Assembly (NCBI GenBank): GCA_026391415.1
Contig: JAPLEL010000103.1
Span: 1 to 33,795 of the forward strand
Source: Bacteroidota bacterium
GTDB lineage: Bacteria; Bacteroidota; Bacteroidia; Chitinophagales; Chitinophagaceae
Direction of reading: 5' to 3'
Length of the DNA stretch: 33,795 nucleotides
Shown: one piece after another, positions 7,880 through 29,926 of the stretch
Layout of the letters: every line of letters begins with the position of its first letter
Numbering within the stretch: the first letter of the stretch is position 1
Program-made: the position numbers and the translations under genes
Notes under the pieces: model-generated
What the model saw: the letters and a program-made list of their open reading frames with translations, nothing else
Databases searched by the model: none
Told to the model about the DNA's origin: nothing

Positions 7880-8584
7880 TTATAGATCAAATTTATACCC
7901 AACCCCTTTAACAGTTGTAATACAGTCAATGCCCATTTTTTGGCGAATTTTACGAATGTGTACATCAATAGTTCGGTCGCCCACTATTACTTCATTACCC
8001 CAAACCTGCGATAAAATTTCGTTGCGTAGAAAAACCCTACCTGGTCTTGATGCCAATAGATGTAATAATTCAAACTCCTTTTTTGCCAATACCACATCAT
8101 TTCCGTCAACCGTTACCATAAACTTTACTGGATCGATATTAATATTATCTATAACTATTGTTTTGCTATCGCTTGCATGATTATTGGCCCTTCTAAACAA
8201 AGCATTCACGCGGCTAATAAGCACTTTTGGGCTAATTGGCTTATTTACATAATCATCTGCACCTATTTCTAATCCTTTAATTTGAGAGGCTTCATCACTT
8301 AAAGCAGTTAAAAAAATGATCAAGGTTTTTTCGAACGTTGGCTGTGTTCGTAAAATAGCGCAAACCTCTGTACCTGTTTTTTTAGGCATCATAATGTCTA
8401 AAATGATCAGGTCTGGATTTAGTTTTTTAGCTTGTTCTATTGCCTCATTGCCATCTTTGGCAGTAAATACCTCGTATCCTTCTTTTGTAAGATTATAACC
8501 TACAATTTCTAGGATATCCGGTTCGTCGTCTGCAATTAATATTTTCTTAGATTTACCTTCCATGTTAACAGTAAGTTTACACAA
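7880..8584 (-). CDS. Response regulator, OmpR/PhoB family (likely start ATG at 8563)
   Basis: KKILIADDEPDILEIVGYNL, DLIILDIMMPKKTG, K in DDYVNKPISP, C-terminal winged helix GNEVIVGDRTIDVHIRKIRQKMG...TVKGVGYKFD. Internal ATG at 8563 (MEGKSKKIL) gives the usual N-terminus. Confidence 0.94.
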   Translation of the reverse strand: MCKLTVNMEGKSKKILIADDEPDILEIVGYNLTKEGYEVFTAKDGNEAIEQAKKLNPDLIILDIMMPKKTGTEVCAILRTQPTFEKTLIIFLTALSDEASQIKGLEIGADDYVNKPISPKVLISRVNALFRRANNHASDSKTIVIDNINIDPVKFMVTVDGNDVVLAKKEFELLHLLASRPGRVFLRNEILSQVWGNEVIVGDRTIDVHIRKIRQKMGIDCITTVKGVGYKFDL

Positions 8585-11218: not shown

Positions 11219-11857
11219 TTAAGAAAGAAAGGGATTGTTTTTTCTTTCATGACCAATAGTGGTTGGTCTGCCATGTCCTGAGTAAACAATTACTTCATCG
11301 GGTAAGGTTAATATTTGTTCTTTAATGCTATTTAGCAATTGTTCATGGGAAGCCATTGGTAAGTCGGTACGGCCAATGCTTTCATAGAAAAGTACGTCGC
11401 CACTTATAATAAAACCCTGTTCTGCGCAATAAAAGCTAATACTTCCAGGAGAATGTCCTGGGGTAAATCGAATACTCAGCTGATCTTCCCCTATTGAAAT
11501 GGTGTTTTCTTGGTTTAAAAAATGTAGGGGGCCAGAATAATTGATAAATGGCATCCCCCAGTTTTCGCCCGATTTTGGTGCGAATTCTAGCATCTTTTCT
11601 TCATTTGGATGGATATACAGTTCTAATCCATAAGTTTTGTGTACCCAATCGTTGCCAAACACATGGTCTAAATGGCAGTGTGTATTAACTAATTGTATCG
11701 GTACAAGTTGGTTATCAGTAATAAACTTTTTTAACGTTTCTTGTTCTTCAGGTGCGTAACATCCGGGATCAATTATAATAGCTTTGTAGGTATCATTGTA
11801 TAGCAAATAGGTGTTTTCTTGTATAGGACTGAATTTAAAAACTTTAACATGAAACAT
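11219..11857 (-). CDS. MBL-fold metallo-hydrolase (glyoxalase II-like)
   Basis: 212 aa; NTHCHLDHVFGND (HxHxDH), FTPGHSPGSISFY, ISGDVLFYESIGRTDLP, VYSGHGRPTTIGHERKNNPFL. Confidence 0.93.
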   Translation of the reverse strand: MFHVKVFKFSPIQENTYLLYNDTYKAIIIDPGCYAPEEQETLKKFITDNQLVPIQLVNTHCHLDHVFGNDWVHKTYGLELYIHPNEEKMLEFAPKSGENWGMPFINYSGPLHFLNQENTISIGEDQLSIRFTPGHSPGSISFYCAEQGFIISGDVLFYESIGRTDLPMASHEQLLNSIKEQILTLPDEVIVYSGHGRPTTIGHERKNNPFLS

Positions 11858-11919: not shown

Positions 11920-14900
11920 ATGCAACTGAATAGATTTAATAAATGGCTTTTTTTAATAGGATTTCTTTTCCCCATCGTTTCTACGGCGCAAGTTAATGCA
12001 GTGGTGTTTGGAAAAAACAGGGTACAACACAAGAAATTTATCTGGAAATTTCACCAGTCTCCCAATTTCAATACTTATACCGCACAATCTGGTGTTGAAC
12101 TAGGCAAGTTTGTTGCCCAAGTTGCAGAAGACGAATTGCCATCAATAGAAAATTTTACAGAATATTCTTTGCAAAGACGCGCTAATATAGTAGTGTATAA
12201 TAATTACAATGATTATAAAAGCAGCAATATTGGATTGGGTTCCGATTGGCAAAATGCTGGCGGATCAACCAAGTTAGTGAATAATAAAATTATACTTTAT
12301 TTCGATGGTAATCACGAGCACCTTAAACAAAGTGTGAGAGAAGGAATTGCCAAAGTATTAACCGATAATTTATTGTTTGGAGATGATATAGGCGAGTTTG
12401 CCAGCAATCAAGCATTACTTGATTTGCCAAAATGGTTGCTTGATGGATATGTAGCCTATGTAGCAAAACCATGGAGTACCGAAAAAGATGATGCGCTTAA
12501 GAGTGCCATTTTGAGTGGCAATTACAATAGCTTTTACCAATTTGCATTTGAGAAGCCATTATTAGCAGGTCATGCATTCTGGTATTATTTTGGTGAAAAA
12601 TATCGCGTAGAAAACATCACCTACTTATTATATTTAGCAAGGATTTATAAAAATTTAAATAGTGCAGCGCTTCGTGTTTGTAAAATTAAGTTCAAAGATG
12701 TGTTGAAAGATTTCATGCAGTTTGAGCAAGACCATTATATAAAAGAAATCCGTCAACGAAGAAATGCTCCCAAGGGTTTATTAAATATTACAGAAGATGT
12801 AACGAAGAATGATTATTTCCGTTTTCAAGCAAGTCCAACACCTAAGAGTAATAATTACGCAGTTGTTGAGTTTAAAAAAGGTATTTATAGTGTAAAGTAT
12901 TTTGAGAATTTTTATAATGCCAAAATTTTACTTAAACTAGGTGTCCGCACCAATCAAGGCGATATCAATCCAAACTATCCTATCATGGCATGGGATGGAA
13001 AGGGTAGCAGGTTGTTGGTTATTTATTGGGAAGATGGAAAAACAAAAATGTTTGTGTATGACGCAGTGGCGCACTACAAACGTTTTAAACAAACGATTGA
13101 AGGATTAGACCAAATAACGGATGCGTCGTTTATGTTGGATGCCAATTCATTGGTATTGAGTGCGGTTAAAAATGGTCATTCAGATATTTTTACCTATAAA
13201 ATTGAAGAGCAAAAAATGACCCAAATTACCGACGATGTGTACGACGATTTGGATCCTAGTTTTGTTGCTTTTCCTAACCGAGTAGGAATAGTGTTTGCCT
13301 CAAATAGACCTAGTGGTTCTGCTCCAAATAAAGATACCGTTTTACCAAGTCGTTATCGCTTTAATATATTCATGGTGGATGTATTAAATACTAGTAAAGA
13401 AAAACAAATAGCCAAATTAACCAACCTACAGTTTGGTAATGCGCGCTATCCAATGCAATACAATCCAACACACTTTACATTTGCATCAGACGAAAATGGT
13501 ATCATTAATCGTTGGGCTGGTTTCTTTGCCACCCAAAGAAATGGAGTAGATACTTTGGTATATGTAGGGGATGAATTATTGCACAACCCGTCTAAAAAAG
13601 AATACGATTCAACACTAGTAGCTTGGAGAAAAAATGAACCCGATAGTGTGGGTTATTTTCAAGTATACAAAGACTCTACCTATACATTTCCTATTACCAA
13701 TTATCAAAGTTCTTTATTAGAAACTAGAATTGCGGGTAATAATGGACAAGTAAGTGAAGTACGTCAAGAAGGTGATTATAAGTTTTTATATAAATTAAAA
13801 GTAGACGAAACTGCATTGTTAAAACGTAATGTTAATGCGCGTCCTACTGAGTTTATGAAAAAGCAAATTGATGCCAAAAGAGCTTCAGAGGGTAAAGCAA
13901 TTATCTACAACAAAAAACAAGTAGTAGATACAGTAAAGCCAAAATCAACGGCTATTTTTCAAAATGAATTTGCAGACGAAAAGCCCGATACATTAGTTGC
14001 TGTAAACAAACTATTGAACAATGCAGTAAAAGTTTCAACACTTAGTAAGTCTAAATTATTTGACTATCGATTGAAATTTAGTAGTGATTATATTTTAGCA
14101 GGGTTTACCAATAATATACTTATCAATAGATACCAGCCTTATGGTGGAGGGTCGGGTCCTATTCAATTAAATAATGGTAACGACCTCAATTTTACTTTTA
14201 GGGTTGGCGCAAGTGATTTAATGGAAGACCTCAAATTTGTTGGCGGTTTTAGATTTGGCACCAATTTGAAAGATAAGGATGTGTTTTTCTCTTTCATGAA
14301 CAATAAAAAACGTTTAGACTGGGGCTTAACATACTATAGAAGTAATGTGAGCAATTATTTTAATACTAATTATAACAATGAATTAGTAACTAATTTGTTT
14401 CAAGGAAATGTTTCTTATCCATTTAATGAAGTAAAAAGTTTACGTGCAACACTTGGTGTACGTTCCGATAGAGGAATTTTAAAATCATACGATAATTATT
14501 CTGGTCAACCAGACCCTAATGCACTTGCTTATAAAGATACTGTGTCTAGATATGCGTTGGCTCGTGTAGAATATGTGCACGATAATATTTAGAATATGTG
14601 CATGATAATACCATTAATCCAATCCAAAATATTTGGAATGGATTGCGTTTTAAAATCTATTTAGATGTTAATCTGCCTGTTTATAAAAACTCTTTTGGTT
14701 CAGGAACTAAAACTTTTAATTTAGGGTTTGATGCAAGGCAATATGTAAAAATTTATAGAAACTTTATTTGGGCCGGACGTGCGGCTGCCGATTTCTCTTG
14801 GGGCAACCAAAAACTAATTTATTATTTAGGAGGTGTTGATGGATGGATAGGACCACAGTTTAATAGCAATCCGCCAGCGCCAGATCAAAACTATGCTTTT

Positions 14901-15329
14901 CAGTCTTTGGCAGTGAATATGCGAGGCTATAATCAAAATATTGCCAACGGAAACAATGCGTTTGTTATCAATTCTGAATTAAGATTGCCTCTTTTTGCAA
15001 CCTTAATAAATAGACCGATTAACAATGCATTTTTACGCAATTTTCAATTGGTACAATTCATTGATTTAGGCTCTGCTTGGAATGGCAAATACAATGGCAT
15101 TAAGCGCCCGGGGCAATATATTCAAACACTTGATCCTAGTGGAATTCCAACAGGAAATGTTACTGTTAAGATTGATGCCGGTGGGTTAGGACCTTTTGCT
15201 GGTGGATATGGTTTTGGTATGCGCAGTACCTTAATGGGCTATTTTATGAAATTAGATACGGCATGGCCAATGAAAGGTGTTTTTGTAGGAAAACCAATCT
15301 GGTATTTTTCTTTAGGGTTTGATTTTTAG
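11920..15329 (+). pseudogene. Outer-membrane protein with TolB/WD40-like propeller and C-terminal Omp85/surface-antigen-like barrel, interrupted by a 23-nt duplication (ORFs 11920-14592 and 14598-15329)
   Basis: ORF1 ends ...ARVEYVHDNI*, ORF2 opens MHDNTINPIQNIWNGLRFKIYLD. Removing 23 nt restores one 1129-codon frame (3410-23=3387 nt). The C-terminus GPFAGGYGFGMRSTLMGYFMKLDTAWPMKGVFVGKPIWYFSLGFDF is typical of barrel ends. Confidence 0.85.
14567..14610. repeat. 21-nt direct repeat (TAGAATATGTGCA[C/T]GATAATA), copies offset by 23 nt
   Basis: Copy 1 14567-14587 and copy 2 14590-14610 differ only at C14580/T14603. The stop TAG at 14590-14592 is created by copy 2. Confidence 0.97.
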
Positions 15330-15383: not shown

Positions 15384-17876
15384 ATGGCTGTTCGTTACAA
15401 ATTTGTGCTTAGTTTATTCTTATTATTTTTTTGTACAATCTGGGTACAAGGCCAGGGTAGAAAATTGTTTGGGGTTGTTAAAGACAAACAAAGCGACGAG
15501 CCTATTCCTTTTGCATCGGTTGTTTTTAGATTATCAAATAAAGGCGTTCTAACAGATTCTGCAGGAAGATTTTCGGTAGACTATGCATCCTTATTGGCCA
15601 ATGATTCAGTACGCGTATTAAGTGTTGGCTACAAGCCGCTGATAATTCCTATTCGCAGTATTAAAGACAGTGCAGAACTAATTTTAAAAATAGAAGTTTT
15701 ACCACCTACCGGCGAGGCGGTTGTAAAAAGCAAATACAATCGGGCACTTTGGTTCTGGCGCAAAATAATGGCCAATAAAGACAAGAATAACCGCACCCGT
15801 TGGGATAGTTATTCTTATGAAATTTACAATAAGTTAGAGATGGACCTCAACAATGTAAAATCAGAGAAACTCAAGAAAAATATTTTTTTAAAACCACTAG
15901 GATTTGTACTAGATTATGTAGACTCAGCCGATGGCAGTAAGCCTTATTTACCAGTCTATTTAACAGAAACCCTTTCTGATTATTACTACCAAAAAAATCC
16001 AGAAAAAATTCACGAAATCATCAAAGCCACTAAAACCAATGGTTTAGATAATGAAAGTTTAATAAAGGAATTAGGAGGGATGTACCAGAACGTAAATGTG
16101 TACAGCAATTTCATTCCTATTTTTAATAAAGATTTTATCAGTCCATTTAATTCCAATGCCGACAATTTTTATCATTTTAAATTAGCAGATACAGCCTATT
16201 TAAGTGGTAAAAGATTAGTGCATTTTCGCTTTACAGCCAAACGAAAAGGGGAGAGTACTTTTGAAGGTGACTGTTGGGTAAATGACACCAGCTTTGCTAT
16301 TCAAAAAGTAACCATGCGTCCGTCTCCGGATGCCAATATTAATTTTATTGAAGGGCTTTCTTTAATTCAGGAATTTAGGCTTATTCAAGATTCTGTTTGG
16401 TTTTTATACAAAGATAAATTTGTGGCAGATATTGCACCTATTGGTAACGGTAAACTCGGAATTAAAGGCCGAAAAACTACTACTTATGAGCATATTGTTT
16501 TAAATGACCAACAAGCTATAAAAGATTTAAGTGTCACACAAAAATCACAACAAATAGACCTATTAAAAAATACCGATAATTTCACCGATTCTTTTTGGAC
16601 GAAAAACCGACACGAGGCCCTGAATAAAAATGAAAATACGGTATATAAAGTATTAGATACACTTACCAAAAATCCTACCTATGTTTTTTATAGAGATGCC
16701 TCTAAGGCATTTTTAAAAGGCACCAAGGATATTGGTAATATTCGTATAGGCCCTTGGTACTATTGGGTTAGCGGAAATAATTGGGAAGGCAACAGGTTTA
16801 GATTCGACCTTTCTACTAACCGCTCATTTAGTAACAATTTGTACTTAACGGGTTATGCTGCTTATGGAACCAAAGACGGTAAGTTTAAAGGAGGGGGAGA
16901 AGCCAAATATTTATTTAGCAGAGACAACTGGACCTATTTAAAATTCGTTTATAAAAACGATTTGGACAATGGACAAGCAACTTACGATCAATTAGGAACA
17001 GATAATTTATTTGGTACAATTTTTAGACGTCCAAATATTCCTTTTAAATTTCAACAACTCATAGAAAAAAGATTGGAATTTTATAGAGAAACACCCAATG
17101 GCTTTGCCTATGGACTTTCTGGATCAAGCAAACAATTTAATGCACTCCAAAATCTACCAGGCAAAGAATTATTTTCGCAAAAAGGCAATAATCCATTTAA
17201 TACTTTTGAAACTATATTGCGTTTGCGGTATGCCTATTTAGAACGTAAAATAGAAGATAATTTTTTACGCGTTAGTTTGGGAAGTTTGTATCCTATTGCA
17301 GACTTTAAATATACCAAGGGATGGAACAATGTTTTGGGTAGTAATTACAATTACCAAAAATTAGATTTCAATGTTTCTCAATTGGTTAAAATATCGCCAT
17401 ACGGAACCGTTTATTATAATTTATTTGCAGGAAAAGTATTTGGAACTTTACCGTATCAAATGTTAGATATTTTGCCTGGAAATGAAATGTATTACTACAA
17501 CAAATTTGCCTTCAATTTAATGCAACGATTTGAGTACCTCACCGATCAGTTTACAGGATTTAATTTAGAACATAATTTTGGTCCAGGTTTGTTTAAATAC
17601 ATACCTATTACACGTAAATTAAAATTCCGTCAATTCTGGAGTGCCAAAGGAATAGTAGGGAGTTTAAGTGCCGAAAATCAACAATTAAATTATGTAGGAA
17701 ACTATCCATATCGATCATTGGATAGTAAGCCCTATATAGAACTAGGAACAGGGGTAGATAATATATTTAAATTCTTTAGAGTCGACTTTGTTTGGCGGGT
17801 TGCTGCACCAGCGCCAATTACTGGTGCTTTACGCGACAAGTTTGGCATATTTGGAAGTTTTAGATTCCAGTTTTAG
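15384..17876 (+). CDS. DUF5686 / carboxypeptidase-regulatory-like domain outer-membrane protein
   Basis: 830 aa; signal peptide; N-terminal GVVKDKQSDEPIPFASVVFRLSNKGVLTDSAGRFSVDY; central YEIYNKLEMDLNN; barrel-like C-terminus ending FGIFGSFRFQF. Confidence 0.85.
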   Translation: MAVRYKFVLSLFLLFFCTIWVQGQGRKLFGVVKDKQSDEPIPFASVVFRLSNKGVLTDSAGRFSVDYASLLANDSVRVLSVGYKPLIIPIRSIKDSAELILKIEVLPPTGEAVVKSKYNRALWFWRKIMANKDKNNRTRWDSYSYEIYNKLEMDLNNVKSEKLKKNIFLKPLGFVLDYVDSADGSKPYLPVYLTETLSDYYYQKNPEKIHEIIKATKTNGLDNESLIKELGGMYQNVNVYSNFIPIFNKDFISPFNSNADNFYHFKLADTAYLSGKRLVHFRFTAKRKGESTFEGDCWVNDTSFAIQKVTMRPSPDANINFIEGLSLIQEFRLIQDSVWFLYKDKFVADIAPIGNGKLGIKGRKTTTYEHIVLNDQQAIKDLSVTQKSQQIDLLKNTDNFTDSFWTKNRHEALNKNENTVYKVLDTLTKNPTYVFYRDASKAFLKGTKDIGNIRIGPWYYWVSGNNWEGNRFRFDLSTNRSFSNNLYLTGYAAYGTKDGKFKGGGEAKYLFSRDNWTYLKFVYKNDLDNGQATYDQLGTDNLFGTIFRRPNIPFKFQQLIEKRLEFYRETPNGFAYGLSGSSKQFNALQNLPGKELFSQKGNNPFNTFETILRLRYAYLERKIEDNFLRVSLGSLYPIADFKYTKGWNNVLGSNYNYQKLDFNVSQLVKISPYGTVYYNLFAGKVFGTLPYQMLDILPGNEMYYYNKFAFNLMQRFEYLTDQFTGFNLEHNFGPGLFKYIPITRKLKFRQFWSAKGIVGSLSAENQQLNYVGNYPYRSLDSKPYIELGTGVDNIFKFFRVDFVWRVAAPAPITGALRDKFGIFGSFRFQF

Positions 17877-18912
17877 CCAGTGCTTCGCAGATATTTTTTA
17901 CAATTTTCGGACCTTCATAAACAAAGCCTGTCCATACCTGAATTAAACTAGCGCCAGCATTTAATTTTTCTTTTGCGTCAAAGCCATTAAAGATGCCACC
18001 ACTTGCAACGATAGGTATTTGACCATTGGTATTGGTAGATAAATATTGTACTACTTCGGTAGCGCGATTGGTAACAGGTTTGCCACTTAAACCACCAGCG
18101 CCAATGGCTGCTATAGTATCTGCAGGTGTTTGCAAATTTTCTCTACTAATGGTGGTATTAGTTGCTACCAATCCATCGAGTTTGGTTTCAAAAGAAAGGG
18201 CCACAATATCGTCTAGTTGTTCTTGTGTTAAATCGGGTGCAATTTTTAACAACAAAGGTTTTGGTTTTGCTTTGCCTTGGTTAATATTTTGCAGTTGTGA
18301 TAATATTTTTTTTAAGGATTCTTTTTCTTGTAATTCACGTAGTCCTGGTGTGTTTGGTGAGCTAACATTCACAACAAAATAATCTACTTCTTCAAACAAG
18401 CCTTCAAAACAAATTTCATAGTCTTTCCATGCTAATTCGTTGGGGGTTAGTTTGTTTTTTCCAATATTACCTCCAATAATTAATTGGGTATTACTTTTTT
18501 GATTATTCCAATTGGCTAGTTTTTCTTTAATAGCCACTACACCTTCATTATTAAAGCCCATTCGATTAATCAGTGCTTTGTCTGCGGGCAAACGAAATAG
18601 TCTGGGTTTATCATTGCCGTTTTGTGCCAAAGGCGTAACGGTTCCTATTTCAACAAATCCAAATCCCAAACAAGCCAATTCATTTAAATAAGCGGCATTT
18701 TTATCAAAACCTGCACCTAACCCTACCGGATTGGTAAAATTCAATCCAAAAACTGTTTTCTGTAAACTTGTATCCTTAACACAAAACTGTTTTTCAATGA
18801 TGGCGCGCGAAGGCCCAAAAGCACAAGCTTTTTTTAATAGGTTCATTGAAAAATAATGTACTTCTTCGGGCGAAAATTGAAACAATAAATTGCGAAGGAT
18901 GGTGTATAACAT
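17860..18912 (-). CDS. pyrD: Dihydroorotate dehydrogenase (quinone), class 2
   Basis: ORF track opens at 18987; internal ATG at 18912 gives MLYTILRNLLFQFSPEEVHYFSMNLLKKA. Motifs NPVGLGAGFDKNA, GFVEIGTVTP, RLFRLPADKALINRMGFNNEG, VNVSSPNTPGLRELQ, LKIAPDLT, GGLSGKPV, IVASGGIFNG. Confidence 0.95.
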   Translation of the reverse strand: MLYTILRNLLFQFSPEEVHYFSMNLLKKACAFGPSRAIIEKQFCVKDTSLQKTVFGLNFTNPVGLGAGFDKNAAYLNELACLGFGFVEIGTVTPLAQNGNDKPRLFRLPADKALINRMGFNNEGVVAIKEKLANWNNQKSNTQLIIGGNIGKNKLTPNELAWKDYEICFEGLFEEVDYFVVNVSSPNTPGLRELQEKESLKKILSQLQNINQGKAKPKPLLLKIAPDLTQEQLDDIVALSFETKLDGLVATNTTISRENLQTPADTIAAIGAGGLSGKPVTNRATEVVQYLSTNTNGQIPIVASGGIFNGFDAKEKLNAGASLIQVWTGFVYEGPKIVKNICEALAKTGI

Positions 18913-29341: not shown

Positions 29342-29926
29342 TTATTCAGCTACTGGAGGTACAGGTGTTTCAGTAACAACAACTTCTGGAGCTGCAACTA
29401 CTTCAACAACCGGTGCAAACAATACAGGTGCTACTACTTTTTTAGGAGCTTTTTTCTTTTTAGGAGCTGCTTTCTTTACAACTACTGGAGCAGGTGCAAC
29501 CACAACTGGTGCTAATACTACTTTAGTTGTTTTTTTCTTTTTAGGAGCTGCTTTTTTAGGTGCAACTGCTTTCTTAGCTGGAGCCGCTTTTTTCACTGCT
29601 TTTTTAGGAGCTGCTTTTTTAGCTGGAGCCGCTTTTTTTACAACTTTTTTAGGAGCTGCTTTCTTAGCTGGAGCCGCTTTTTTTACAACTTTTTTAGGAG
29701 CTGCTTTTTTAGCTGGAGCTGCTTTTTTCACTGCTTTTTTAGGAGCTGCTTTTTTAGCTGGAGCTGCTTTTTTTACAACTTTTTTAGGAGCTGCTTTTTT
29801 AGCTGGGGCTGCTTTTTTTACTGCTTTTTTAGGAGCTGCTTTTTTAGCTGGAGCTGCTTTTTTAGGAGCTGCTTTTTTAGCTGGAGCTGCTTTCTTTGCT
29901 ACCTTTTTTTTACTTGCTTTTGCCAT
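29342..29926 (-). CDS. Histone H1-like Lys/Ala/Pro-rich repeat protein with Val/Pro/Glu tail
   Basis: 194 aa; MAKASKKKVAKKAAPAKKAAPKK..., six consecutive 15-aa units KKAAPAKKAAPKK(A/V)V; tail FAPVVEVVAAPEVVVTETPVPPVAE. Confidence 0.88.
   Translation of the reverse strand: MAKASKKKVAKKAAPAKKAAPKKAAPAKKAAPKKAVKKAAPAKKAAPKKVVKKAAPAKKAAPKKAVKKAAPAKKAAPKKVVKKAAPAKKAAPKKVVKKAAPAKKAAPKKAVKKAAPAKKAVAPKKAAPKKKKTTKVVLAPVVVAPAPVVVKKAAPKKKKAPKKVVAPVLFAPVVEVVAAPEVVVTETPVPPVAE
29594..29863 (-). repeat. Six tandem 45-nt coding repeats inside the histone-like gene
   Basis: 270 nt = 6 x 45 nt encoding KKAAPAKKAAPKK(A/V)V; partial units flank both sides. Confidence 0.88.

Follow-up and report, generated by a model that had tools for sequence, protein, structure and literature searches.

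A 23-nt tandem repeat that divides an Omp85-type outer-membrane gene is probably an unmerged join between two contig ends

In the window, that is, the whole 33.8-kb stretch of DNA analysed here, which comes from an uncultured Bacteroidetes bacterium, a 1128-codon gene for an outer-membrane protein is divided by a directly repeated 23-nt sequence into two open reading frames (Table 1), and the question arises whether this break exists in the living bacterium or only in the assembled sequence. The initial annotation had left a real duplication, a phase-variable switch and an assembly artefact open, calling the artefact a serious alternative, under the headline of a split gene whose repeat copies differ only synonymously. 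Single-copy homologues, the presence of the nearest relative's Leu codon in unit 2, purifying selection and unmerged joins elsewhere in the assembly now favor the artefact, and the headline is no longer the preferred reading.

Table 1. Positions of the gene parts, the repeat units and the putative seam in the window
Feature	Position	Strand	Description
Upstream gene part	11920..14592	+	890-aa ORF: signal peptide, N-terminal mostly helical domain, TolB-like propeller, first half of Omp85-type barrel
Downstream gene part	14598..15329	+	243-aa ORF in a different frame: second barrel half, MRGY motif, C-terminal ..SLGFDF
Repeat unit 1	14565..14587	+	TGTAGAATATGTGCACGATAATA; in the upstream ORF frame, codes for the end of ..R V E Y V H D N
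Repeat unit 2	14588..14610	+	TTTAGAATATGTGCATGATAATA; in the downstream ORF frame gives L E Y V H D N, same as nearest relative
Putative assembly seam between two contig ends	14587..14588	.	inferred

The two 23-nt units abut directly, with no spacer, and are identical at 21 of 23 positions. Both 21-nt strings in which the repeat had originally been described were located where that description placed them, and the TT regarded there as a spacer is part of unit 2, since the full units abut exactly. Besides these two copies, no further match to the strings was found at up to three mismatches across the 33.8 kb, and 100 shuffles gave none, as against the two observed. The units differ at two sites. 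One is a G/T difference in the first base of the codon preceding Glu and is nonsynonymous (GTA, Val, in unit 1; TTA, Leu, in unit 2), while the other is a C/T difference in the third base of a His codon (CAC/CAT) and is synonymous. The claim of a synonymous difference alone is therefore valid for the trimmed 21-nt core and not for the full units. Unit 1 continues the upstream ORF as ..ARVEYVHDN, and unit 2 opens the downstream reading LEYVHDNTINPIQ.., both units being clean coding alleles that keep the reading frame of their respective sides. In the upstream frame, unit 2 gives a TAG stop at 14590-14592, which confirms the proposed termination of the 890-aa ORF by the second copy. A hairpin with a 7-bp stem at 14562..14582 (+ strand; one found vs 0.2 expected in shuffles of the region) overlaps unit 1; speculatively, it might have helped to break the assembly here. 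Elsewhere in the window, the minus strand encodes at 29342-29926 a 194-aa Lys/Ala/Pro-rich repeat protein (KKAAPAKKAAPKK...) with a 45-nt tandem array at 29548-29880, which resembles histone H1-like or AlgP-like proteins.

The 1128-aa protein obtained in the initial annotation by joining the two parts has exactly the length of the intact protein of the nearest relative. Profile matches and the predicted fold indicate that the product is an ordinary WD40-Omp85-type outer-membrane protein with a BamA-like barrel. Among the NCBIfam models, the upstream part matches TIGR02800 (TolB propeller) with E=1.1e-6 and the downstream part NF047779 (Omp85_fam) with E=4.2e-6, each under the curated cut-off of its model; Pfam gave no match to either gene piece. 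TolB structures were found in the PDB by family profile (7mx5, E=1.1e-6). The predicted model of the intact 1128-aa relative, which is of moderate confidence (mean pLDDT 67.5), begins with a mostly helical domain, continues with a propeller and ends in a barrel, and its best fold-search matches are BamA barrels (E=1.4e-11). The RG of the MRGY motif in the barrel half is invariant. In this model, the position of the repeat corresponds to the end of strand 874-888, approximately midway round the barrel. A real break would deprive the product of about half of the barrel, of the conserved MRGY motif and of the aromatic residue at the C-terminus.

The proposed alignment of homologues was run in search of the extra 23 nt, and no homologue carries it: the repeat sequence is present as a single copy in every homologue covering the site (about 45 loci, plus further loci genus-wide). 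Besides the window's own genome, 11 genomes of the genus match almost the entire query, and in each of them the gene is a single open frame of 1120-1139 codons; two further genomes of the genus give partial matches only. The nearest relative, L032, aligns colinearly with the window along 12.3 kb (89.5% identity), a region in which the 23-nt insertion is the sole indel longer than 1 nt; L057 (from G128) is 100% identical to L032 over 3.8 kb. In the downstream frame, unit 2 is translated as LEYVHDNTINPIQNIWNG; this matches the nearest relative exactly, down to the TTA Leu codon, which is also the common one in the family. At the repeat site, L032 combines this Leu codon, as in unit 2, with the His codon CAC, as in unit 1. 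A shift in identity to L032 across the seam was looked for and none was clear, so that a switch of strain is not independently visible. At the far end of the L032 contig (L032:12281-13214), the match to the window stops inside pyrD, the aligned part ending at window position 18223, and the last 930 bp encode unrelated fragments; this may be a chimeric end in a metagenome-assembled genome.

Comparison with L032 reveals strong purifying selection on both gene halves, with dN/dS values of 0.034 for the part preceding the repeat and 0.031 for the part following it. The conserved neighbors at 7880-8584 and 11219-11857 give 0.03 and 0.05, respectively, which means that the gene is as constrained as they are. 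No other stop or frameshift was found in the gene in this comparison and, together with the dN/dS values, this indicates that the gene has not decayed after the supposed break. The next gene (15384-17876), which encodes a DUF5686 protein with a carboxypeptidase-regulatory-like domain, has a dN/dS of 0.21, far above the 0.03 of the split gene.

The window constitutes contig 122 in a draft assembly of 306 contigs (2.93 Mb, 91% complete, 3% contaminated). The assembly statistics and the mostly metagenome-assembled origin of the relatives suggest that this draft is metagenomic. The assembly checks cover 822 kb, sampled as stretches, in which 13 N-gaps of variable length (10-110 nt) are present, and these differing lengths indicate that the assembly was scaffolded. 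At three of the 13, the end of one flank is repeated without mismatch at the start of the other, over 5, 5 and 8 nt, the chance of an overlap of at least 5 nt being 0.26% per gap. Reading through the three overlaps gives continuous proteins in which motifs can be recognized, namely an GIPTETVYGLAANAL N-terminus, GRKSDLIISGGFNIYP and a PPNEFTLAVGDRISISI stretch, the first presumably YrdC/Sua5-type and the second presumably acyl-CoA-ligase-like. Consequently, no sequence is missing at these gaps, where the overlap was simply left unmerged, and the assembly does leave overlapping ends unmerged. Unmerged overlapping flanks are an error type described for IDBA-UD and CLC (PMC7111523). No other N-free join or frame-breaking tandem duplication was found in the 822 kb sample, so that exactly such a failure is not shown to recur in this assembly; the same tandem-duplication search in control genomes gave few matches, of low complexity. 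Shared k-mer ends between contigs yielded one 18-nt join only, uninformative as to the assembler used, a second allele was not found elsewhere in the assembly, and the search for viral contigs gave no match. Some contig ends duplicate sequence of the same contig: L094 (G000 C19) over 130 nt and L132 (C127) over 35 nt, both direct, and L113 (C38) over 99 nt, inverted.

Collectively, these findings make it very probable, although not proven, that the repeat arose when two overlapping contig ends, each bearing its own allele, were joined with no intervening Ns. The two ends would span the same stretch of the gene, the upstream one carrying the Val GTA + CAC allele and the downstream one the Leu TTA + CAT allele; set end to end with the 23-nt overlap unmerged, they would cause the overlap to be printed twice. 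As 23 is not divisible by three, the repeat shifts the frame of the gene as printed, which then appears to stop early. The failure would be the same as at the overlapping N-gaps, here with zero Ns, the two strain alleles presumably having been too different to merge. At this N-free junction the unmerged contig join is inferred, and the allele-like differences suggest that the two units derive from two co-occurring strains. The gene itself, as present in the living bacteria, is most probably unbroken and codes for one WD40-Omp85-type protein of about 1128 aa.

The main rival is a real, recent 23-nt tandem duplication, arising by replication slippage or by out-of-register recombination with a divergent allele and inactivating the gene in the strain sampled or in a subpopulation. 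The exact abutment of the units is as expected from slippage, a second allele is absent elsewhere in the bin, and an event unique in 822 kb suits a rare mutation. Nevertheless, a duplication of this kind is unlikely: slippage would at first leave an exact copy, yet 2 of 23 positions differ, and for differences that arose later no corresponding decay is seen in the adjoining 3.4 kb. For a duplication too young to have affected the rest of the gene, two substitutions in 46 nt are many, with a probability of approximately 0.15 at the most generous rate bound and 0.045 at half that rate; divergence of the units after duplication would need a higher rate than that suggested by the nonsynonymous differences in the gene, an argument of moderate and not decisive weight. 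Furthermore, unit 2 has the family's common Leu codon, and the duplication is absent from all homologues of a gene that is widely conserved in the genus. It is very doubtful that a real out-of-register recombination of two divergent alleles produced a 23-nt repeat that reversibly switches off this conserved Omp85-type protein in the natural population.

Outer-membrane proteins often phase-vary in other bacteria, and a switch in which the gain or loss of one 23-nt unit toggles the protein off and on would agree with the nature of the product and with a unit length that is not a multiple of three. Such a switch is nonetheless highly improbable, given that there are just two, imperfect copies, that no homologue has a repeat tract at the site, and that dN/dS is 0.03; Omp85-type proteins are also not known as typical phase-variable antigens. 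The number of repeats does not vary among the relatives, all homologues covering the region being single-copy, and a search of the literature for phase-variation repeats of 23 bp yielded nothing close. A genuine fission, with the barrel assembled from two separate polypeptides, can be almost entirely discounted: both ORFs are still open and conserved, but the downstream one has no visible signal peptide and its start would fall inside the repeat, no relative is split, and the cut lies about halfway round the predicted barrel.

The evidence thus points to an ordinary artefact and not to biology, of low biological interest and useful as an illustration. The probable contig join is an instructive case of strain variants whose seam, in a public genome, can mimic a gene-breaking duplication, and such seams can yield false pseudogenes and false claims of phase variation. 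The signs by which it can be recognized are allele-like differences between the copies, each copy in the frame of its own side, a single copy in relatives and unmerged overlaps at other joins.

Regarding known systems, the gene product resembles the WD40-Omp85 subfamily of the Omp85/TpsB superfamily (PMC4104836): a TolB-related N-terminal beta-propeller is followed by a C-terminal Omp85-type barrel with the RGY/F motif, and the predicted fold of the relative fits BamA barrels. An additional, mostly helical N-terminal domain before the propeller would set it apart from that subfamily. With the slipped-strand frameshift and phase-variation tracts of outer-membrane genes, the repeat shares a tandem unit of a length not divisible by three; in contrast to those tracts, it consists of two long imperfect units, relatives have no tract, and there is no sign of repeated switching. 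The repeat also resembles the scaffolding-type error of metagenome-assembled genomes (PMC7111523), in which sequence common to two contig ends is present twice where they meet and breaks a gene. Three joins of this type, with Ns, are present in the same assembly. Unlike these, the junction described here contains no Ns, and its 23-nt overlap carries two mismatches, compared with the shorter, exact overlaps of 5-8 nt at the N-gaps.
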